A stretch of 64,000 nucleotides of DNA, from NCBI GenBank assembly GCA_024103275.1, contig JAGFIV010000037.1, positions 1-64,000 on the forward strand, given 5' to 3'. The translations under genes were made by a program, and so were the position numbers. Position 1 is the first letter of the stretch. The number at the start of each line of letters is the position of its first letter. Below the pieces are notes generated by a model. The model ran no database searches and was not told the DNA's origin. It was given only the letters and a program-made list of their open reading frames with translations. This DNA is from Flavobacteriales bacterium. GTDB lineage: Bacteria; Bacteroidota; Bacteroidia; Flavobacteriales_F; PHOS-HE28. Below, in pieces: positions 53,514 to 62,735 of the stretch.

Positions 53514-54014
53514 ATGAGCCCCATGAAACTTGGTTCCACGTTGATGCCCTTGGGCGTAGTAGCCCTGCTGATGGTCGCCTGCGGCGGCGGCGATGCCCAA
53601 AAGGCGGCCCCGGCCGAGCCGGCAAAGCCTGCCGAGACCACCCAGGCCGCCAAGCCTGCCACCACCGGGGAAATCACCTATCCGCCTGATTTCATCACGG
53701 CCGACAAGATCACCCCGCCGTTGACGGACGCCATCGACCAGACCATGGTGGACAACGCCATGAAGATCTTCAACGCCAAGTGCAAGGCCTGCCACGGCCT
53801 CACCGAGGAGAAGGTGGTCGGCCCGGGATGGAAGGGCGTGATCAAGGAGCGCAAGCCCGAGTGGATCATGAACATGATGCTGCACACGCAGTGGATGCTT
53901 GAGAATGATCCCGAGGCGCAGAAGCTGGTGGAGGAGACCGGTGCACAGATGACGGACCAGGAGCTCACCGAGAAGCAGGCGCGCGAGATGCTGGAGCTGA
54001 TCCGCTCGCTCTGA
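53514..54014 (+). CDS. Cytochrome c lipoprotein, paralog of the nos-cluster cytochrome
   Basis: The 166-residue lipoprotein (lipobox LLMVAC), has an Ala/Pro linker and one c-type haem domain with CKACH, VVGPGWKGV and a likely Met axial ligand in the C-terminal helical part. It is clearly related to the cytochrome at 55415-55909 (shared PEWIMNM, LHT, NDPEAQ). Periplasmic electron carrier role inferred, possibly for N2O reductase. The 248 bp before it contain no gene; no Crp/Fnr site was seen there. Confidence 0.8.
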   Translation: MSPMKLGSTLMPLGVVALLMVACGGGDAQKAAPAEPAKPAETTQAAKPATTGEITYPPDFITADKITPPLTDAIDQTMVDNAMKIFNAKCKACHGLTEEKVVGPGWKGVIKERKPEWIMNMMLHTQWMLENDPEAQKLVEETGAQMTDQELTEKQAREMLELIRSL

Positions 54015-54036
54015 GCCGATCGCGACAGGCGCATTG

Positions 54037-54069
54037 AAAAGGCCGGTTCCCGTGCGGGGCCGGCCTTTT
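54037..54069. terminator. Bidirectional terminator between convergent genes
   Basis: A 10-bp stem AAAAGGCCGG with CCGGCCTTTT (54037-54046, 54060-54069), a 13-nt loop, and T or A runs on both sides so it works in both directions. It touches the stop of the convergent membrane-protein gene. Confidence 0.85.
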
Positions 54070-55344
54070 TCATGGGACGGCGGGCAGCGGTGTGCGTTTC
54101 CGCCAGCCATGGGCCAGCAGGACGAAGATGCCTGCAGGGAGCAGCATCGACAGGGCGAGGATCAGGCCGTAGTAGCCAGGCATCATGCCCATGCCCAGCC
54201 AGAACATGCCCCCTTGCAGGAAGAGGAGGCCTTCGCTCAGCACCATTCCACCGGTGAAAACGGACAGGCCGATGCGCACGGTGGTGGAGGTGCTGATGAA
54301 CCAGCGGTTCACCAGGGCCATGGCGAAGAGCATCATGCTGATGCAGGCCAAGGTGTTCAGGTGGATGAAGCCGACCACGAAATTGCGCACGGTAAAGGCC
54401 ATCACGGCGAGCTGGGGTACGGCCACGGCGGCCTGCATCACCACCTTGAGGGCCATGCCCACCAATGCATACGTGACGCAGCGCCAGGCCCAAAGCGGGG
54501 CCTTGTCCTGCAGGCGCCGCTGTGCGCCGAACACGGCCTTTGCGGTGCGCCAACCCGCCCATAGCTGCAGGAACACCCCCACGGAGTTGACGGCATAGAC
54601 CATCCAGTGGCGTTCGCTCCAGGCGATGGCCAAGGCGAAGGTGAGCAGCACCGAGATCACCCACAGGCGTATGGTGGTGCGGTCCAGCAGGTAGCCCACG
54701 CCGTGGGTTTCGGCCCATCGGCTCCACAGGGCGAGGCCGCCGAACCAGAACCAGCCGTTGAGCTGGAAATGCAGGTAGAACTGGATGGACCAGTAATACA
54801 GCTCGGTGCCGAAGCCGCCGCCCTCGATGATGGGCCACATGGCCCACACGCCGAGCGTGGAGATGTACATCATCAACACGGCCAGGCGCGCCAGCATGCC
54901 GCTGCCGTTGACGCGCCAGGTCTGCGATACCTTCAGCACACGGGCCCCCAGCAGGTAGCTGGCCAGCATGTGCGTGATGGTCACCGACGTGGTGAAGGCA
55001 CCATAGCTCTGCACCGGGAAGCCCAGGAGCATGCCCACGACGGCCAATTGGGAAATGGCCAGCAGGGCCAAGGTGGTGCGTGAAGGGCCCTTGGGCGTCT
55101 CGTCCTTGAGCATGAAGGCCACCATGGCGATGAAGGCCCATCCCAGCATGGCCACGTGGGAATGGGCGTTCAGCAGGGCCCTGAACCGGAAGACGGGGAT
55201 GTCCCAGATGTAATAGGCCCTGAGGAAAGCCCCGATCAGGCCGGCAATTCCGAAGTTCAGCAGGGCGATGTTGAACCAGCGACGCATCCGGGCGCTAAGG
55301 TCCGCAAAATACGGGCTCCGACCCCCCTGATCAAACTCATCCAT
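54070..55344 (-). CDS. Polytopic membrane protein with haem-copper-oxidase/NnrS-like histidines
   Basis: The 424-residue protein has about 12 membrane helices. Conserved-looking histidines sit in helix contexts: LLNAHSHVAMLGW (His61, His63), TITHMLASYLLG, FYLHFQLNGWFWFGG and VVGFIHLNTLACISM. This recalls haem-copper oxidase subunit I or NnrS, but the full haem/CuB set is not evident. It lies between two paralogous cytochrome c genes next to nosZ, so a role in electron flow or NO handling is plausible. It starts 6 bp from the Crp/Fnr-like site of the divergent cytochrome gene. Confidence 0.6.
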   Translation of the reverse strand: MDEFDQGGRSPYFADLSARMRRWFNIALLNFGIAGLIGAFLRAYYIWDIPVFRFRALLNAHSHVAMLGWAFIAMVAFMLKDETPKGPSRTTLALLAISQLAVVGMLLGFPVQSYGAFTTSVTITHMLASYLLGARVLKVSQTWRVNGSGMLARLAVLMMYISTLGVWAMWPIIEGGGFGTELYYWSIQFYLHFQLNGWFWFGGLALWSRWAETHGVGYLLDRTTIRLWVISVLLTFALAIAWSERHWMVYAVNSVGVFLQLWAGWRTAKAVFGAQRRLQDKAPLWAWRCVTYALVGMALKVVMQAAVAVPQLAVMAFTVRNFVVGFIHLNTLACISMMLFAMALVNRWFISTSTTVRIGLSVFTGGMVLSEGLLFLQGGMFWLGMGMMPGYYGLILALSMLLPAGIFVLLAHGWRKRTPLPAVP

Positions 55345-55349
55345 GGGCC

Positions 55350-55391
55350 TGATATGTGTCAGCCCTACCTTAGCGGCGGTCCCGAATTTTG
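55350..55391 (+). promoter_or_regulatory. Crp/Fnr-type operator and promoter of the nos cytochrome-nosZ unit
   Basis: TGAT-ATGT-GTCA at 55350-55361 and a near-consensus -7 element GAATTTTG at 55384-55391. The G of the -7 element is 35.5 bp from the operator centre, identical to the narC and narK promoters. Inferred start near 55397 with a short leader to the ATG at 55415. Confidence 0.6.
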
Positions 55392-55414
55392 AACCCGAAA
55401 ACAAGGAAAAACAA

Positions 55415-55909
55415 ATGTTAACGAAGAAGGCTACGGTGTACAGGAACATGGCCGCAGGTATCGGCCTGGCCTCGATGATGGCTTTGGTGGCGGCATGCGG
55501 CGGAAGCGGGTCGGCCCCGGCGGAAAAGCCGGCGACGGCGAATGAGGCAGCCAAGACGGAGGCGGCAACCCCGCTGCCGGGAATGATCACTGCCGACCAG
55601 ATCGTCCCGCCCCTGGAGGAAGGCAAGATCGACCAGGCCATGGTGTCCAAGGGCAAGGAGATCTACGAGGTAAAATGCCTGTCCTGCCATAGCTTGGGCA
55701 CCAACCGCGTGGTGGGTCCGGGCTGGGAGGGCATCATGAAGCAACGTACGCCGGAGTGGATCATGAACATGATCCTGCACACGGACGCGATGCTGGAAAC
55801 CGACCCCGAAGCCCAGGCCATGTTGGAGGAGTGCCTGGTGCGCATGCCCAACCAAAACCTGACCAACGAGGAAGCGCGCGACGTGCTGGAGTTCATGCGC
55901 ACGCTTTGA
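55415..55909 (+). CDS. Cytochrome c lipoprotein directly upstream of nosZ
   Basis: The 164-residue protein has a signal sequence with lipobox LVAAC, an Ala/Glu-rich linker and a single haem domain with CLSCH, VVGPGWEGIMKQRTPEWIMNM and a C-terminal helix with Met (VRMPNQNLTNEEARDVLEFMR). It probably hands electrons to NosZ; clade II nos clusters often include small c-type cytochromes. The start at 55415 lies inside the inferred transcript, unlike the longer frame from 55343. 68 bp before nosZ with no terminator. Confidence 0.82.
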   Translation: MLTKKATVYRNMAAGIGLASMMALVAACGGSGSAPAEKPATANEAAKTEAATPLPGMITADQIVPPLEEGKIDQAMVSKGKEIYEVKCLSCHSLGTNRVVGPGWEGIMKQRTPEWIMNMILHTDAMLETDPEAQAMLEECLVRMPNQNLTNEEARDVLEFMRTL

Positions 55910-55977: not shown

Positions 55978-57966
55978 ATGAGAAGAACCCCAATGACCAC
56001 CGTGTTGCCGTTGCTTCTTGCGGCCGGCATCACCATGCCGTTGGTCCAAGGCTGCAAGCCGACCAACACCAAGACCGCCGTCACCGGCGACGCGGCATCG
56101 AAGGTCTTCGTCCCGCCGGGCCAATATGACGAGTTCTACAACTTCGTCAGCGGCGGCTTCAGCGGGCAGATGTCCGTCTATGGCCTGCCCTCCGGCCGCA
56201 TGTTCCGCAACATACCGGTGTTCGCGGTGGACCCCGAGAGCGGATATGGCTACAGCGAGGAGACCAAGCCCATGCTGATGACCACGCACGGCTTCATGCC
56301 ATGGGACGACTCGCACCACGTGGAGTCTTCCATGACGGACGGGGTTCCCGACGGGCGTTGGATGTTCATCAACGGCAACAACACCCCACGGATCGCGCTG
56401 ATCGACCTGACCACCTTCCGCACCAAGACGATCATTGAGATCCCCAACAGTGCGGGCAACCACAGCTCGCCGTTCATCACCCCGAACAGCGAATACGTGG
56501 TGGCCGGAACGCGTTTCAGCATACCTATGGGAACGGATGCGCAGCGCGACGTGCCGATCAACACCTACAAGGAGAATTTCAAGGGCACGGTGTCGTTCAT
56601 CCACCCGGACCCTGCCACGGGCAAGATGAACATCGCGTTCCAGATCACGGCCCCGGGGATCGACTTCGACCTCAGCCACGCCGGCAAGGGCCCCAGCGAC
56701 GGCTGGTTCTTCTTCAGCACCTACAACACCGAACAGGCCTACAAGCTCCTGGAGGTGAATGCCAGCCAGAACGACAAGGACTTCATCATGGCGGTGAACT
56801 GGAAGAAGGCCGAGCAGTACGCCAAGGAAGGCAAGGGCAAGATGGTGCCTGGCAGGCACTACATGAACCACTATGATGAAGGCACGCATACGGCCACCAG
56901 CGAGGTGATCGAGCAGGTGATGCAACTGGACCACAAGGAGCTCAAGGACCTGCTCTACTTCATGCCCTGTCCCAAGAGCCCGCACGGCTGTGACGTGGAC
57001 CCCACGGGCCAGTACATCGTGGGCAGCGGCAAGCTGGCCGCGCTGATCCCGGTGTTCTCCTTCGACAAGATGATCAAGGCCATCGAGAACAAGGACTATG
57101 AAGGCGAGTTTGACGGCATCCCCGTGCTGAAGTATGAGAGCGTGCTGCACGGCGAGGTGAAAAAGCCCGGCTTGGGACCCTTGCACACCGAGTTCGACAA
57201 CAACGGCAACGCGTACAGCTCCATGTTCGTCAGCAGCGAGATCGTGAAGTGGAACGTGCAGAGCCTGGAAGTGCTGGATCGCGTGCCGACCTACTACTCC
57301 ATCGGCCACCTGTGCGTGCCCGGCGGTGATAGCAGGCAGCCGTGGGGCAAGTACGTGATCGCCTACAACAAGATCACCAAGGACCGCTACCTGCCCACCG
57401 GCCCCGAGCTCTGCCAGAGCGCCCAACTCTTCAGCATCGACGGGCCCAAGATGGAACTGTTGGCGGACTATCCGTCCATCGGCGAACCGCACTATGCGCA
57501 GGCCGTGCCCGCCAGCCTGATCAAGGACAAGTCGGTGAAGTTCTTCAAGATCGAGGAGAACAACCACCCGTACGTGACCAAGAGCGAGAAGGACGCCCGC
57601 GTGGTGCGCGAAGGCAACAAGGTGCATGTGTACATGACCTGCATCCGCTCGCACTTCGCCCCGGACAACATCGAGGGCATCAAGATGGGCGACGAGGTCT
57701 ACTTCCACGTCACCAACCTGGAGCAGGACTGGGATGTACCCCATGGCTTCGCGGTCAAGGGTGCGGCCACGGCCGAGCTCCTGATCATGCCCGGCGAGAC
57801 CCAGACCCTCAAATGGGTGCCCACCAGCGTGGGCGTAAAGCCCTTCTACTGCACCGACTTCTGCTCGGCCCTCCACCAGGAGATGCAGGGCTATGCCCGC
57901 GTATCGCCCGCCAACAGCAACGTGCCCCTGAGCGCCAACACCAAAGCCGCTGACGCCGGTCTCTGA
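55978..57966 (+). CDS. nosZ: Nitrous-oxide reductase, clade II (Sec-exported)
   Basis: It reduces N2O to N2 in the periplasm using CuA and CuZ copper centres. The 662-residue protein has a Sec-type lipoprotein-like signal (lipobox LVQGC) instead of a twin-arginine signal, the mark of clade II. The N-terminal propeller carries CuZ histidine motifs (DDSHHVE, GPLHTEFD, GEPHYAQ), and the C-terminal cupredoxin has the CuA set Cys625, Cys629, His633 and Met636 (CTDFCSALHQEM). An ATG five codons downstream is an alternative start. Confidence 0.96.
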   Translation: MRRTPMTTVLPLLLAAGITMPLVQGCKPTNTKTAVTGDAASKVFVPPGQYDEFYNFVSGGFSGQMSVYGLPSGRMFRNIPVFAVDPESGYGYSEETKPMLMTTHGFMPWDDSHHVESSMTDGVPDGRWMFINGNNTPRIALIDLTTFRTKTIIEIPNSAGNHSSPFITPNSEYVVAGTRFSIPMGTDAQRDVPINTYKENFKGTVSFIHPDPATGKMNIAFQITAPGIDFDLSHAGKGPSDGWFFFSTYNTEQAYKLLEVNASQNDKDFIMAVNWKKAEQYAKEGKGKMVPGRHYMNHYDEGTHTATSEVIEQVMQLDHKELKDLLYFMPCPKSPHGCDVDPTGQYIVGSGKLAALIPVFSFDKMIKAIENKDYEGEFDGIPVLKYESVLHGEVKKPGLGPLHTEFDNNGNAYSSMFVSSEIVKWNVQSLEVLDRVPTYYSIGHLCVPGGDSRQPWGKYVIAYNKITKDRYLPTGPELCQSAQLFSIDGPKMELLADYPSIGEPHYAQAVPASLIKDKSVKFFKIEENNHPYVTKSEKDARVVREGNKVHVYMTCIRSHFAPDNIEGIKMGDEVYFHVTNLEQDWDVPHGFAVKGAATAELLIMPGETQTLKWVPTSVGVKPFYCTDFCSALHQEMQGYARVSPANSNVPLSANTKAADAGL

Positions 57967-58091: not shown

Positions 58092-58778
58092 ATGGGAACC
58101 ATTGCCATCCCGGTGCGCCCGGAAAAGATCGAGGGCGCAGCGGGCCGGAGATCGAACAGCCTTTTCAGCACCCTCAAACGCATCCTAAAACAACCGATCA
58201 TGCGCCCCAGCTCCCGGATCTTTGTTGCCATTGCCGCTCTCGCCATGGGCATCCTGCTGTGGCAGCCCATCTGGCGAATCGACCTCTGGGCGCCCCAGTA
58301 CCCCGAAGGCCTGACCCTGCAGATCTTCCATGACCACTTTACCGGCAACGTGGAACAGATCAACGGCCTGAACCACTACATCGGCATGGCCGTCATCCAT
58401 GATGACATGTTCCCCGAGTTTGAGATCATGCGCTACGCCATCGGCCTACTGATCCTGTGGGGCCTGGGCGCGGCCATCATCGGCCGGCGTTGGGCCTTGG
58501 GCACCTGGCTGATCACCCTGTTCGCCTTCGTGCTCTGGGCCATGTGGGACATGTATTCCTGGGGATACAAGTATGGCCACGAGCTGGATCCGCACGCAGC
58601 CATCAAGGTCGAGGGCATGGCCTACCAGCCGCCCCTGTTCGGCCATAAAACCCTCCTTAACTTTGAGGCATGGTCCTTCCCGGATATTGGCGGCTATGTC
58701 CTGTTTGGCGCCATCCTGATAGCGGGCCTGGTCTTCCTGCGCGAATGGCTGAAGCCGCGAACAAGCCCTGCCAAGTGA
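58092..58778 (+). CDS. nos-cluster membrane protein of unknown function (NosB-like position)
   Basis: The 228-residue protein has four predicted membrane helices (FVAIAALAMGILLW, YAIGLLILWGLGAAII, LITLFAFVLWAMWDMY, GYVLFGAILIAGLVFL) and His-rich loops (FHDHFTGNVEQINGLNHYIGM, GHELDPHAAIKVEGM). It sits between nosZ and nosL, the position of nosB or other clade II accessory membrane genes, but I cannot assign it firmly. The histidines could bind copper or haem. An internal ATG at 58200 would remove a 36-residue hydrophilic N terminus and may be the real start. Confidence 0.65.
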   Translation: MGTIAIPVRPEKIEGAAGRRSNSLFSTLKRILKQPIMRPSSRIFVAIAALAMGILLWQPIWRIDLWAPQYPEGLTLQIFHDHFTGNVEQINGLNHYIGMAVIHDDMFPEFEIMRYAIGLLILWGLGAAIIGRRWALGTWLITLFAFVLWAMWDMYSWGYKYGHELDPHAAIKVEGMAYQPPLFGHKTLLNFEAWSFPDIGGYVLFGAILIAGLVFLREWLKPRTSPAK

Positions 58779-58785
58779 GAACCCA

Positions 58786-59229
58786 ATGAGGAACCAGTTG
58801 ATGACATTGGCCCTGGTGCTGTTTGCCTCGGGCTGCTCGGTGGGGCAACCGGAGATCAAATACGGCTCCAGTGAATGTGCCCATTGCCGCATGAACGTGG
58901 TGGATGCCAAGTTCGGCGCGGCCATCGTCACCACCAAGGGGCGTACCTACGTGTTCGACGCGCCCGAGTGCATGGTGCCGTTCGTGGGCCCCAACGGCCA
59001 GTTGGTGCAGCAGGAAGTGGGGGGGTGGTACGTGTCTGATTTCGCGCACCCCGGCACCCTGATCGATGCCACCAAGGCCTTGTACCTGCACGCCCCCACG
59101 CTGAAGAGCCCCATGCGGGGCAACGTGGCGGCATTCGCCACCGATGACGAGCGCAAGGAGGCGCAGAAGCATTTCCCGGGCGAGCTGATGGATTGGCCCG
59201 CGGTGCAAAAATTGTTCAGCGACGAATGA
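58786..59229 (+). CDS. nosL: NosL copper chaperone lipoprotein
   Basis: NosL binds Cu(I) in the outer or inner membrane leaflet and supplies NosZ. The 147-residue lipoprotein has lipobox FASGC (Cys17) and the copper motif Cys31-x2-Cys34-x-Met36 (CAHCRM), then VFDAPECMVPFV. 7 bp after the membrane protein gene, overlapping nosD by 4 bp. Confidence 0.92.
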   Translation: MRNQLMTLALVLFASGCSVGQPEIKYGSSECAHCRMNVVDAKFGAAIVTTKGRTYVFDAPECMVPFVGPNGQLVQQEVGGWYVSDFAHPGTLIDATKALYLHAPTLKSPMRGNVAAFATDDERKEAQKHFPGELMDWPAVQKLFSDE

Positions 59230-60494
59230 CGGGACTGCGTCCTTGGTGCCGCGCGGCGGCGATCATTTCGCTGCTGGGGGCAACGGGGCCGCTGGGAGCC
59301 AGGACATGGACGGTGGAGCCGGGGGGCAGGACTTCCGGGATCACCGCCGCCATTGGCGCGGCACAGGCGGGCGATACCGTCCGCGTGCTGGCCGGCACCT
59401 ATGCCGAGGGCATCATCACCATTGACAAGCCCTTGGTGCTGATCGGCGTGGGACGGCCGCTGATCGATGGCGCGGAAAAGGGGGACGTGATCATCATCGA
59501 GGCGCCCAACGTGGTGGTGCAGGGGTTCCGGATAACCGGCACCTTGGTGAGCAACATCAACGACAATGCGGCCATCAAGGTGAAGAAATCGGACCATGTA
59601 CAGCTGATCGACAACATCGTGGAACGCGCCTTCTTCGGCATCCACGTGGCCAGCTCGCGCAACACCGTCATTGCGCGGAACGTGGTCAGCGGCGACCCGG
59701 CGGTGCCCGAGACCCGGCGTGCCAACGCCATCCACTTGTGGCACTGCTCGGGGGCCGAGATCACCGACAACCTTTCCCAGGACCATCGCGACGGCATCTA
59801 CTTCGAGTTCGTCACCGAAAGCCACATCCGCCGCAACCGCAGCCTGCGCAATCTGCGCTACGGCCTGCACTTCATGTTCAGCAACAACGACACCTACTCG
59901 GACAACTTCTTCAAGGACAACGGGGCCGGCGTGGCCGTGATGTACAGCAAGTTCGTGGACATGCGGCGCAACCGCTTCACGAGCAACCGCGGCGCCAGCG
60001 CCTACGGCCTGCTCCTGAAGGAGATCAACGACGTGGTGATCGACAGCAACCAGTTCGTGGACAACACCACGGCCATCCTGGTGGACGGCTGCAACCGTGC
60101 CAAGATCAATGACAACGTCTTCCGGGGCAACGGATGGGCCGTGCGCCTTTTCGCCAATTCCATGGATTGCCATTTCTCGGGCAACACCTTCGTGGGCAAC
60201 ACGTTCGACATGAGCACCAACGGCAACCCGGTATACAACAGCTTCAGCGGCAACTACTGGGACCGGTACAAGGGCTACGACCTGGACCGCGACGGCATTG
60301 GCGACGTGCCCTTCCGGCCGCTGAGCCTCTTCGCCATGGTGAACGAGCGCATGCCGTATGCCGTGGTGCTCTCGCGCAGCCTGCTCACCGGCCTGATGGA
60401 CCAGGCCGAGAGGCTGGTGCCCAGCATGACCCCCGAAGGGCTGGAGGACGACAAACCCCTGATGAAACAACCGCATGGCACGCGTCATCTTTGA
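59226..60494 (+). CDS. nosD: NosD, periplasmic beta-helix maturation protein
   Basis: This carbohydrate-binding-like beta-helix protein works with NosF and NosY to deliver copper or sulfur for CuZ assembly. The 422-residue protein has a signal peptide (AAIISLLGATGPLGA) and repeats such as NVVVQGFRITGTL, NTVIARNVVSGDP, NDVVIDSNQFVDNTTAILVDGC and the family end NYWDRYKGYDLDRDGIGDVPF. The start at 59226 overlaps the nosL stop as ATGA. Confidence 0.93.
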   Translation: MTGLRPWCRAAAIISLLGATGPLGARTWTVEPGGRTSGITAAIGAAQAGDTVRVLAGTYAEGIITIDKPLVLIGVGRPLIDGAEKGDVIIIEAPNVVVQGFRITGTLVSNINDNAAIKVKKSDHVQLIDNIVERAFFGIHVASSRNTVIARNVVSGDPAVPETRRANAIHLWHCSGAEITDNLSQDHRDGIYFEFVTESHIRRNRSLRNLRYGLHFMFSNNDTYSDNFFKDNGAGVAVMYSKFVDMRRNRFTSNRGASAYGLLLKEINDVVIDSNQFVDNTTAILVDGCNRAKINDNVFRGNGWAVRLFANSMDCHFSGNTFVGNTFDMSTNGNPVYNSFSGNYWDRYKGYDLDRDGIGDVPFRPLSLFAMVNERMPYAVVLSRSLLTGLMDQAERLVPSMTPEGLEDDKPLMKQPHGTRHL

Positions 60495-61212
60495 GAAAAC
60501 AGGCAAGCGCTATGGCAAGTTGTGGGCGCTGCGCGACCTCAGCGCCCGGTTCGAGCCGGGCGAGACCGTCTCGGTGATCGGCCCCAACGGATCGGGCAAG
60601 ACCACCTTGATCAAGTGCATGCTGGGCCTGGTCCACGCCACCACGGGCACCATCCGGGTAAACGGGCAGGTGGTGGGCAACGACCCCGCCTACCGGCACC
60701 AGATGGGCCACATGCCGCAGATCTCGCGCTTCCCCAACGAGCTGAAGATCGGCCAACTGATCGACCTGATGGACGACATCCGCGGGAACGACATGCAGCG
60801 CTCGGAGGGTCCCTTGATCCGTGAACTGGGCGTGGACCGCATGCTGGACAAGCGCCTGGGCACGCTCAGCGGCGGCCAGCGCCAGAAGGTGAGCGCGGTG
60901 CTGGCCTTCCGGTACGCCCCCACCGTGCTGGTGCTGGACGAGCCCACCGCCGGGCTGGACCCGCTCAGCTCGGAGATCCTGCTGTCGGCCGTGCGCGAGA
61001 TCAAGCGCACGGGCTGCACCGTGCTCATCACCAGCCACCTGATGGAGGAGGTAGAGGCCATGGCCGACCGCATCGCCTACCTGCAGGATGGCGGCCTGCA
61101 ATTCCTGCTCTCCCCGGAGGAGATCCTGGAAGCCACCGGCCAAACGCGCCTCTCCAGGGCCATTCCGGCCATGCTGGCCAACAATGTGAAGCGCCATGTG
61201 GAAAGTCTATAA
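60475..61212 (+). CDS. nosF: NosF, ABC transporter ATPase of the Nos assembly machinery
   Basis: It powers the NosDFY complex. The 245-residue protein has Walker A GPNGSGKTT (around residue 37), signature LSGGQRQK, Walker B VLVLDEPTAGLDP and the H-loop region LITSHLMEEVE. It overlaps nosD by 20 bp and nosY by 17 bp, so the three are tightly coupled. Confidence 0.95.
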   Translation: MARVIFEKTGKRYGKLWALRDLSARFEPGETVSVIGPNGSGKTTLIKCMLGLVHATTGTIRVNGQVVGNDPAYRHQMGHMPQISRFPNELKIGQLIDLMDDIRGNDMQRSEGPLIRELGVDRMLDKRLGTLSGGQRQKVSAVLAFRYAPTVLVLDEPTAGLDPLSSEILLSAVREIKRTGCTVLITSHLMEEVEAMADRIAYLQDGGLQFLLSPEEILEATGQTRLSRAIPAMLANNVKRHVESL

Positions 61213-61963
61213 GTACACCCTGATCGACCTGGCCCGCAACAAGTTCGTGGGCGGATGGTTACTGCTGTTGCTGGCCATCAGCTTCGGCCTCTTCCAGCTG
61301 GAAGACCAGCCGCTGAAGGCGATGCTGAGCCTGACGCAGGTGCTGCTGGCCCTGGTGCCGCTGGTGGCCTCGATATTCAGCATCGTGTACCTGTATGACG
61401 CCATGGAGTTCACGGAACTGCTGGCGGTGCAACCCCTGCACCGCTCGAAGATCCTGGGCGGGCAGATGCTGGCGCTCGGCACCGCCCTGGTGCTGGGCAC
61501 ATGGATCGGCGCGGGGATCCCGTTGATGATCTTCCAGGCCGGATCCGCTGCGTTCACACTGGTGCTGGCCTGCACCATGCTCACCTTGGTGTTCACCGCC
61601 ATGGGTGCGCTCATCGCTTTCAAGAACCGCGAGAAAGCCCGTGGCGTGGGACTGGGCCTGGTGGTCTGGTTCCTGTTCGTGCTGGTGTACGATGCCATCC
61701 TGCTGTGGATCATGTACGCGTTCAGCGACTATCCCATCGAACCGTGGATCGTGCCCTTGGCCGCGCTGGACCCCATCGACCTGGGCCGCATCATGGTGAT
61801 GCTGAAGGTGGACCTGGCCGCCATGATGGGTTATACCGGTGCCGTGTACGAGAAATTCTTCGGCAGCATGGCGGGCACATTCCTGGCCCTGGGGGCGTTG
61901 GTGGCCTGGGTGGCCGTCCCCTCCGCATGGGCCTTCAAGGCATTCCAACGGAAGGATTTTTGA
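61196..61963 (+). CDS. nosY: NosY, ABC transporter permease of the Nos assembly machinery
   Basis: The 255-residue membrane protein has about six helices (LLLLAISFGLFQL, VLLALVPLVASIFSIVYLYD, and FLALGALVAWVAVPSAWAF at the end), and the ABC-2 type motif EFTELLAVQPLHRSKILGG. With NosF and NosD it forms the accessory transporter for CuZ assembly. Last gene of the visible nos run. Confidence 0.92.
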   Translation: MWKVYKYTLIDLARNKFVGGWLLLLLAISFGLFQLEDQPLKAMLSLTQVLLALVPLVASIFSIVYLYDAMEFTELLAVQPLHRSKILGGQMLALGTALVLGTWIGAGIPLMIFQAGSAAFTLVLACTMLTLVFTAMGALIAFKNREKARGVGLGLVVWFLFVLVYDAILLWIMYAFSDYPIEPWIVPLAALDPIDLGRIMVMLKVDLAAMMGYTGAVYEKFFGSMAGTFLALGALVAWVAVPSAWAFKAFQRKDF

Positions 61964-62130
61964 TCGGGGCCGTTCAGGGGCGGCATGGGGGATGGTGTGC
62001 AAGCGGCGGCCATTCCTGCACGGGATTCGCCAGCCCGGCCCGGTCGCGGTGCCCCGGCGTTTTTACACCCCGCTGACAAGAATCAGGTAAAAGGCTGCCA
62101 AGCGGCAACCCGGGGGAGGTCGCTTCGCAG

Positions 62131-62138
62131 GATTTTTG
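62131..62138 (+). promoter_or_regulatory. -7-like element GATTTTTG of the fasciclin gene
   Basis: One mismatch to TAnnTTTG, with a leader of about 37 nt before the ATG at 62181. Confidence 0.4.
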
Positions 62139-62180
62139 GTCCACGGAAAACGCGATCAAACAGCCAAACGAAAACCCGCC

Positions 62181-62735
62181 ATGAAACTCAAACACCTCAC
62201 ACCCTTCGCCGTGGTCGCCCTTCTCACCTCTTGCGGGGGTGGCACCGCGGAAACGGCCGACCAGGCCGCCGCCTCCGTCACACCGGCCACCACCGTGGGC
62301 CAATCGGGGGTGGTGGACGATGAATCCCAGCGCAACGTGGTCCAGGTGGCGGTGGGCTCGCCGGACCACACCACCTTGGTGACGGCCGTTAAGACCGCCG
62401 GGCTGGTGGATGCCCTTTCCAACGCGGGCCCATTCACCGTGTTCGCGCCCACCAACGCGGCCTTCGACGCCCTGCCGGCGGGTACCGTGGACGGCCTGCT
62501 GAAGCCCGACAAGAAGGATGACCTCACCGACATCCTGCAGTACCACGTGGCCGTGGGGGTGTACAAGCCCGAGAACATGAACGACGGACAGGTGCTGGGC
62601 ATGGTGAACGGCGGCAACGTCACCTTCCATGTCCAGGACGGGCAGGTGATGATCAACGATGCCAAGATCGTGGGCACGGTGCCGGCGGCGAACGGACTGG
62701 TCTGCGTCATAGATAAGGTGTTGACCCCGCAATAG
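62181..62735 (+). CDS. Fasciclin-domain lipoprotein
   Basis: The 184-residue protein has lipobox LLTSC and a single FAS1 domain (FTVFAPTNAAFDALPAGTVDGLLKPDKKDDL, LQYHVAVG, and the closing NGLVCVIDKVLTPQ). FAS1 proteins take part in cell-surface adhesion; a specific role is unknown. Its own promoter-like element suggests it is separate from nosY. Confidence 0.85.
   Translation: MKLKHLTPFAVVALLTSCGGGTAETADQAAASVTPATTVGQSGVVDDESQRNVVQVAVGSPDHTTLVTAVKTAGLVDALSNAGPFTVFAPTNAAFDALPAGTVDGLLKPDKKDDLTDILQYHVAVGVYKPENMNDGQVLGMVNGGNVTFHVQDGQVMINDAKIVGTVPAANGLVCVIDKVLTPQ

Follow-up and report, generated by a model that had tools for sequence, protein, structure and literature searches.

The window analysed here is a stretch of 64,000 nucleotides (contig JAGFIV010000037.1, positions 1 to 64,000, assembly GCA_024103275.1) from a Flavobacteriales bacterium. 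Beside its clade II nosZ lies a gene for a 424-amino-acid membrane protein, here given the working name M12, and the question raised by the locus is what such a protein does next to an N2O reductase. The original prediction, made from the sequence alone, credited it with about 12 helices and with haem-copper/NnrS-like histidines. It further suggested that M12 and the two paralogous cytochrome c lipoproteins on either side might form a quinol-to-cytochrome electron route to NosZ or a unit handling nitric oxide (NO). From the computational analysis described below we propose, with moderate confidence, that M12 is a degenerate b-haem protein of the haem-copper oxidase (HCO) homology kind, which handles NO and exchanges electrons with a neighbouring cytochrome c and is not dedicated to NosZ. 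The window genome assembly comprises 137 contigs, of which the window lies on that labelled G000:C124, and the central features are the following.

53514-54014, plus strand: cytA, a monohaem c-type cytochrome with the motif CKACH (Pfam Cytochrom_C, E 3.3e-7) and a lipoprotein signal judged by eye; convergent with M12
54070-55344, minus strand: M12, predicted HCO-fold protein with 12 transmembrane helices, 424 amino acids, ATG start (open reading frame, AlphaFold model, Foldseek, VIA-align, conservation)
55162-55164, 55156-55158, 54769-54771 and 54361-54363, minus strand: codons of the invariant M12 histidines H61, H63, H192 and H328, respectively (alignment of 64)
55350-55361, no strand assigned: FNR-like palindrome TGATATGTGTCA, within the 70 bp that separate the divergent genes M12 and cytB
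55415-55909, plus strand: cytB, a monohaem c-type cytochrome with the motif CLSCH (Pfam Cytochrom_C, E 6e-10) and a lipoprotein signal judged by eye; paralogue of cytA, divergent from M12

The cytochromes are 48-50% identical to each other, and their paralogy and orientations are as first described; the likely start of cytB is the ATG at 55415, a small correction.

Predicted fold and conserved residues of M12

M12 was matched at E<=0.001 in 38 of 296 sampled Bacteroidota genomes, the window genome counted in; the reading frame is thus conserved as a family and is more than a chance one. Searches with a single protein query overlook remote members. One peptide pattern, applied to bacterial and archaeal genome contigs, gave at least 566 candidate relatives, the best 80 of which were kept for further work; among these 80, the closest to the window protein belong to Flavobacteriales metagenome genomes (74-75% identity). 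No relatives were found in viral contigs. Pfam gave no family for M12 at E<=1; in NCBIfam the sole matches, to SLATT_5 (E 0.02) and to a model for homoaconitase (E 0.16), fell far below cut-off. Neither NnrS (PF05940) nor COX1 (PF00115) matched the window protein, which is not one of the three PF00115 matches in its genome. Among 36 diverse members, COX1 was matched weakly by one (E 0.0019) and DUF2871 by two (best E 0.005), NnrS being absent from the families matched. A PDB sequence search found no match for the protein, and the M12 profile nothing beyond one chance match. Among the literature matches listed, no published description of M12 was found in titles or abstract openings.

An AlphaFold model, for which the window protein was combined with 63 relatives (mean predicted local distance difference test score 93.1, predicted template modelling score 0.92), contains 12 membrane helices, in agreement with the number first estimated. 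The best 50 of 321 Foldseek rows (E<=10) obtained with this model were all HCOs or NO reductases (NORs), the top one with E 1.6e-7. VIA-align placed M12 on NorB (4xyd) with a Z-score of 35.7 (3.0 Å, 396 residues), on CcoN (3mk7) with 35.1 (3.4 Å, 403 residues), and on mitochondrial oxidases with about 30. By this model, M12 is a complete 12-helix HCO fold; a shared fold is no demonstration of function.

The loops follow a positive-inside pattern (mean lysine plus arginine 15.7 inside vs 4.5 outside), the inside value being larger in all 64 aligned sequences, and by this measure both termini are cytoplasmic in 64/64. Four histidines are invariant in the same 64 sequences: H61 and H63 in transmembrane helix (TM) 2, H192 in TM6 and H328 in TM10. 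E371, Q304, N196, Q260 and S162 are likewise invariant. Since the loop charges place the termini inside, the four histidines lie near the periplasmic face, at relative depths of 0.29-0.38 from that side, as judged from helix bounds. With E371, Q304, N196 and Q260 the range becomes 0.09-0.47, and the conserved residues as a set are closer to the periplasmic side (Mann-Whitney p 0.006). The 36 diverse members retain H61, H63 and H328 throughout, H192 in 34 and E371 in 31. Columns with histidine in at least 30% of the 64 sequences are 59, 61, 63, 80, 125, 192, 246 and 328; position 125 is histidine in 88%, including the window protein, and position 59 in 89%, the window protein having asparagine. 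E371 is lost in one M12 copy of locus L051 and in its kin L054 and L060; at both L051 and L059, two M12 copies flank a single nos cluster.

M12 lacks the His pair that HCOs carry in TM7, none of the His columns listed above lying in that helix (222-241). The TM10 HxH of oxidases and NORs is also absent, only H328 being present, with position 326 occupied by phenylalanine in 53/64 and tyrosine in 11/64. M12 lacks both the full six-His set of HCO catalytic subunits and the NOR FeB ligands (three histidines and a glutamate), N196 standing at the place of the NOR glutamate when aligned by eye. Because the TM7 pair is absent, M12 is no classical oxidase or NOR. On the simplest reading, the TM2 and TM10 histidines would hold a low-spin haem, as in HCOs. 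The first assignment of haem-copper/NnrS-like histidines thus stands in part: the NorB-like fold and conserved periplasmic-side histidines agree with it, while the profile searches proposed with it gave no COX1 match above cut-off and none to NnrS.

Could M12 and the small cytochrome c nevertheless be a true NOR like NorB/NorC, reducing NO to N2O at a rearranged site in which H328, E371 and N196 surround a non-haem iron? NorB is the top VIA-align match, with CcoN tied within 1 Z; HxxxNG[WF]F in TM6 of M12 resembles by eye the HxxxEGFF of NORs; and the monohaem cytochrome c partner, in some loci fused to M12, is as in the cytochrome c-dependent NOR (cNOR). The missing TM7 pair and TM10 HxH nonetheless speak against such an enzyme, as do the loss of E371 in 5 of the 36 diverse members, the genes like cNOR or the quinol-dependent NOR (qNOR) that accompany M12 in 15/38 genomes, and another, possibly NOR-like HCO in the window genome. 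We regard a true NOR as quite unlikely. A slightly slimmer chance still attaches to M12 and its cytochrome c being a new HCO-fold NO-consuming enzyme, in which haem/metal ligands have moved between the three pseudo-symmetric arcs of the fold (HxH on TM2 and not TM10, single histidines on TM6 and TM10) and which would reduce NO beside NosZ, the two together taking NO to N2 in one membrane module.

Relationship to haem-copper oxidases and their homologues

HCOs are built from three similar four-helix arcs. Two M12 profile sets, A2 and the more diverse A1, were compared with HCO profiles using hhalign. The NorB counterparts of M12 helices 1-3 are helices 9-11 (A2, E 9e-5; A1, E 9e-4; reversed control, E 0.26), and HxHxAxxG is common to both. 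In a three-by-three comparison of arcs, one strong pair emerged, between this M12 arc and the NorB arc (E 3e-7, 93%; 87% with A1). The arc match supports, at the level of sequence profiles, common descent of M12 with HCOs. With A1 the same M12 arc also matches arcs A (42%) and C (21%) of CcoN, and HCO arcs resemble one another (87% for NOR C against CcoN A, 91% between CcoN A and CcoN C).

A circular permutation of the HCO fold in M12 was also considered. The rotated profile that it predicts gave a 379-column full-length alignment with A2 (43.5%) but 1.2% with A1, and local scores differed little; the CcoN profile held 3/20 sequences in this rotation test and 15/20 in the arc test, and the NOR set lost 1/28. 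These results do not establish a permutation: arcs are alike across positions, so that HCO arcs cross-match, and the rotations of A1 and A2 disagree.

Among characterised systems, NorB, which forms cNOR with NorC, shares with M12 the 12-helix fold, a small monohaem cytochrome c partner (for M12 adjacent or fused, by gene position only) and the company of N-oxide genes, and differs in having both catalytic His motifs. CcoN of the cbb3 oxidase has the same fold, whereas the His set of M12 is incomplete and no ccoO or ccoP was found among ten neighbouring proteins tested with Pfam and NCBIfam. NnrS resembles M12 in its length of about 400 amino acids, a conserved histidine in the last third, an H-x6-G motif early in the protein (H61/G68 in M12, H67/G74 in the NnrS set) and NO-responsive gene company, which for M12 comprises ric, nirK, norB and rrf2. 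Membership of NnrS was nonetheless rejected: PF05940 gives no match, profile-profile comparison gives E 0.03-0.07, and the M12 consensus lacks RPFF and GHTG, two motifs of NnrS.

A 2014 study by Pei in Protein Sci is said to have described three-unit HCO-homology (HCOH) proteins, NnrS among them, most of which reportedly have two conserved histidines. These proteins share with M12 12 helices in the HCO fold, a sequence similarity that is strongest with HCO helices 9-12, and a denitrification or NO context; M12 differs in having four invariant histidines. M12 has the traits that define HCOH proteins, namely the HCO fold, a diminished His set and resemblance to the four-helix units of HCOs. Its kind is therefore not new, HCOH proteins being already known. 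Other HCOs have been tied to detoxification and export of nitrogen compounds and to electron transfer in denitrification, according to PMC11218638, a paper that cites the 2014 study.

Near another nos locus, a 399-amino-acid protein (L058:4-1200, minus strand) has VHTLALGW within one of its first hydrophobic segments and, later in the sequence, LHAHAGIVGW. It has no Pfam match at E<=0.1, and its N-terminal part matches CcoN 312-399 (E 2.9e-5). It may represent a further HCO-homology family, in which a different arc bears the HxH.

Distribution and gene company

Co-occurrence was counted over the 296 genomes (38 with M12, 258 without), with NosZ taken above the TIGR04246 cut-off, NOR as a NorB-query match at E<=1e-15 and the iron-sulfur repair gene ric as TIGR03652 at E<=1e-47; the counts ignore kinship. 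NosZ, whose co-occurrence with M12 had been named beforehand as a test, is present in 29/38 M12 genomes vs 70/258 others, in keeping with the original prediction. A cNOR/qNOR-like gene is found in 15/38 vs 26/258, and either NosZ or NOR in 36/38 vs 86/258. Among these three partners taken singly, ric has the highest odds ratio (35/38 vs 79/258). NnrS is above cut-off in 4/296 genomes, none of them an M12 genome; on a known case, plasmid pSymA, the model gave two matches.

Local gene order was examined in 117 stretches around M12 (37 plus 80, some from duplicate genomes), holding 119 M12 copies. Genes of the nos cluster occur in 72/117 stretches and ric in 65/117, while eight stretches hold none of five markers tested, at least three of the eight being on contigs of about 10 kb or less. 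A ric gene or cytB-type cytochrome c gene lies within 700 bp (match end to match end) of 82/119 copies, and 38 times a ric gene precedes M12 in the same orientation. The 45/117 loci without nos in the stretch mostly have ric, nirK or norB. In many Flavobacteriaceae, M12 sits in such nirK/norB/ric islands with no nos in the stretch; Flavobacterium chungbukense, for example, has cupredoxin, qNOR, ric and M12 in order, followed on the opposite strand by SCO, an FGE-type gene and NirK. In a tree of 99 M12 rows the nos-linked state is widespread, whilst 33 rows have no nos in the locus; 23 of these belong to a single 34-row clade made up mainly of Flavobacteriaceae.

The fullest arrangement is found on a plasmid of Tunicatimonas pelagia (L160:7743-17398), which carries rrf2, ric, M12 (annotated 'hypothetical protein'), cytochrome c, nosZ, two genes in the positions of nosB and nosL, then nosD, an ATP-binding cassette (ABC) pair and crp/fnr. 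Here ric and M12 overlap by 4 bases and the cassette is bounded by Tn3-family transposase genes; it is possibly a mobile N2O-reduction unit.

The palindrome at 55350 (TGATATGTGTCA) resembles the FNR/DNR box TTGATnnnnATCAA given in PMC1274295. An FNR-like site was seen at 13/13 window-clade loci examined (nine by script, three by eye, and the window; L073 was left out). Across all upstream regions the motif occurs in 24/102 vs about 5% expected, a figure that is post hoc because the motif was chosen after viewing the regions. The window as a whole has 7 vs 2.7 expected, a number reached by 2/100 shuffles.

M12 is joined in frame to a cytB-type cytochrome c at five loci (L031, L035, L081, L098 and L131). 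The fusion events probably number fewer than five, because L031 and L035 belong to one genus and L035, L098 and L131 to one tree clade. Of four fusions searched with Pfam, three are above the Cytochrom_C cut-off and L098 is below it, CxxCY replacing CxxCH; in this Belliella aquatica protein (L098:9935-11752) the haem motif reads CTACY, the histidine being missing. The retained signal-like segment in the fusions would form a thirteenth helix, placing haem c outside. At L095, a hemerythrin domain follows M12 in a fusion (32.0 bits vs the Pfam cut-off of 25.3).

Proposed role of M12

Adjacency and fusion bear out the suggested tie to cytochrome c, and the fusions argue for a redox role. Is M12 then a dedicated electron route, its b haem oxidising menaquinol and passing electrons through the small cytochrome c to NosZ in place of NosR or NosGH/C1/C2? 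A cytochrome c gene lies within 700 bp of M12 in 50 listed cases among the 119 copies, M12 shares its divergent gap with cytB-nosZ, and its conserved polar residues are close to the periplasmic face. Moreover, Pfam and NCBIfam found no NosR-, NosG- or NosH-like protein among ten cluster proteins tested, the remaining genome not having been searched. Such a NosZ-only route is nevertheless a poor fit because M12 loci and genomes without nosZ exist (45/117 and 9/38, respectively), and it leaves the ric and hemerythrin links unexplained. We consider it unlikely, though the strongest of the alternatives, and the dedicated quinol-to-NosZ version of the original prediction is not upheld. Its other half, an NO-handling unit, is the one we favour, given the ric link and the nirK/norB/ric islands; M12 is not specific to NosZ.

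Two further roles appear highly improbable, to an equal degree. Use of the HCO fold for NosZ maturation or for copper or haem delivery would suit the nos gene company and the SCO genes lying on the opposite strand within 700 bp of M12 in 12 cases, but would explain neither the presence of M12 in genomes without NosZ nor the cytochrome c fusions and ric link. A membrane sensor of NO or O2 without catalytic turnover would suit the degenerate active site and the regulator genes near M12 in the plasmid cassette; against it, a Pfam search of the window protein and 35 relatives revealed no output domain, and the domains fused to M12 are cytochrome c or hemerythrin.

NO handling is favoured by the link to ric, by the hemerythrin fusion and by the loci that have no nos; together with the redox evidence, these make an NO-handling b-haem protein the best reading of M12. 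The fold, topology, conserved residues, gene company and fusions are computational results, whereas haem binding, redox exchange with the cytochrome and a role for NO are inferred from them. Such a protein would have the HCO fold after loss of the catalytic-centre His pair in TM7. Close to the periplasmic face it most likely holds a single low-spin b-type haem through H61/H63, H192 and H328, perhaps with a second, open haem. It would belong to an NO/N2O gene unit whose fullest form is the plasmid-borne rrf2-ric-M12-cytochrome c-nosZBLDFY. At the membrane it may bind NO, slowly reduce it or otherwise remove it, NO being its putative substrate or ligand. Electrons would pass between M12 and the same small cytochrome c that would supply NosZ, and the action of M12 may protect iron-sulfur and copper enzymes during N-oxide respiration.

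Several observations weigh against this proposal. Sequence homology to HCOs is weak and incomplete, good matching being confined to helices 1-3, which pair with NorB helices 9-11. No single enzyme partner is universal, because 7/38 M12 genomes have NOR without NosZ and 2/38 have neither; 3/38 lack ric. Conversely, 70/99 NosZ genomes have no M12 match, which tells against the dedicated route too. Finally, 40 of the 45 loci without nos in the stretch show no cytochrome c of this kind, likewise a point against that route.

The nos cluster and other N-oxide genes of the window genome

Downstream of cytB, the window continues with the following genes.

55978-57966, plus strand: nosZ, clade II as first noted, Sec-dependent (TIGR04246, E 3.7e-278; 923.6 bits vs cut-off 625)
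58092-58778, plus strand: nosB-like membrane protein; no Pfam model
58786-59229, plus strand: nosL (Pfam NosL, E 7.6e-9)
59193-60494, plus strand: nosD (TIGR04247, E 5.6e-124); the listed reading frame starts at a TTG within nosL, so the start is provisional
60475-61212, plus strand: nosF, ABC ATPase (Pfam ABC_tran; gene order)
61196-61963, plus strand: nosY, ABC permease (Pfam ABC2_membrane_2; gene order)
62136-62735, plus strand: fasciclin-domain protein after nosY, with an FNR-like site upstream at 62074-62085

PMC9697520 gives an LNHYIGM stretch and YGHN for NosB; the window protein has LNHYIGM, with YGHE in place of YGHN. Fasciclin-domain homologues turn up repeatedly in many nos loci.

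Elsewhere the genome encodes a copper nitrite reductase (L223:1462-2565, minus strand, G000:C16; TIGR02376, E 1e-131, 439 bits vs 296.3). No cNOR or qNOR match was found in the window genome. It has three COX1-type genes, the third of which (L226:1477-2922, G000:C133) encodes an HCO subunit I with GHTLANE in place of the oxidase tyrosine motif; by eye, its neighbours are a cupredoxin subunit with CxxxCxxxHxxM and an SCO-like gene. This HCO is possibly a non-standard NOR, which we take to be perhaps of the eNOR type, and the view that the window genome has no NOR was dropped once it was found. Three ric matches are present, one of them (G000:C39:38490-39161) within an unusually long 561-amino-acid open frame.

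Significance for clade II N2O reducers

Clade II N2O reducers take up a greenhouse gas. How electrons are fed to their NosZ, and how they live with NO, is to our knowledge poorly known. In one wastewater genome survey, 70.6% of clade II genomes were Bacteroidota (PMC11409646). With its HCO fold and its links to ric, to cytochrome c and to nosZ, M12 is a concrete candidate for this gap, and a natural example of the oxidase fold without its catalytic His pair. It is probably a haem protein with which N2O-consuming bacteria cope with nitric oxide.

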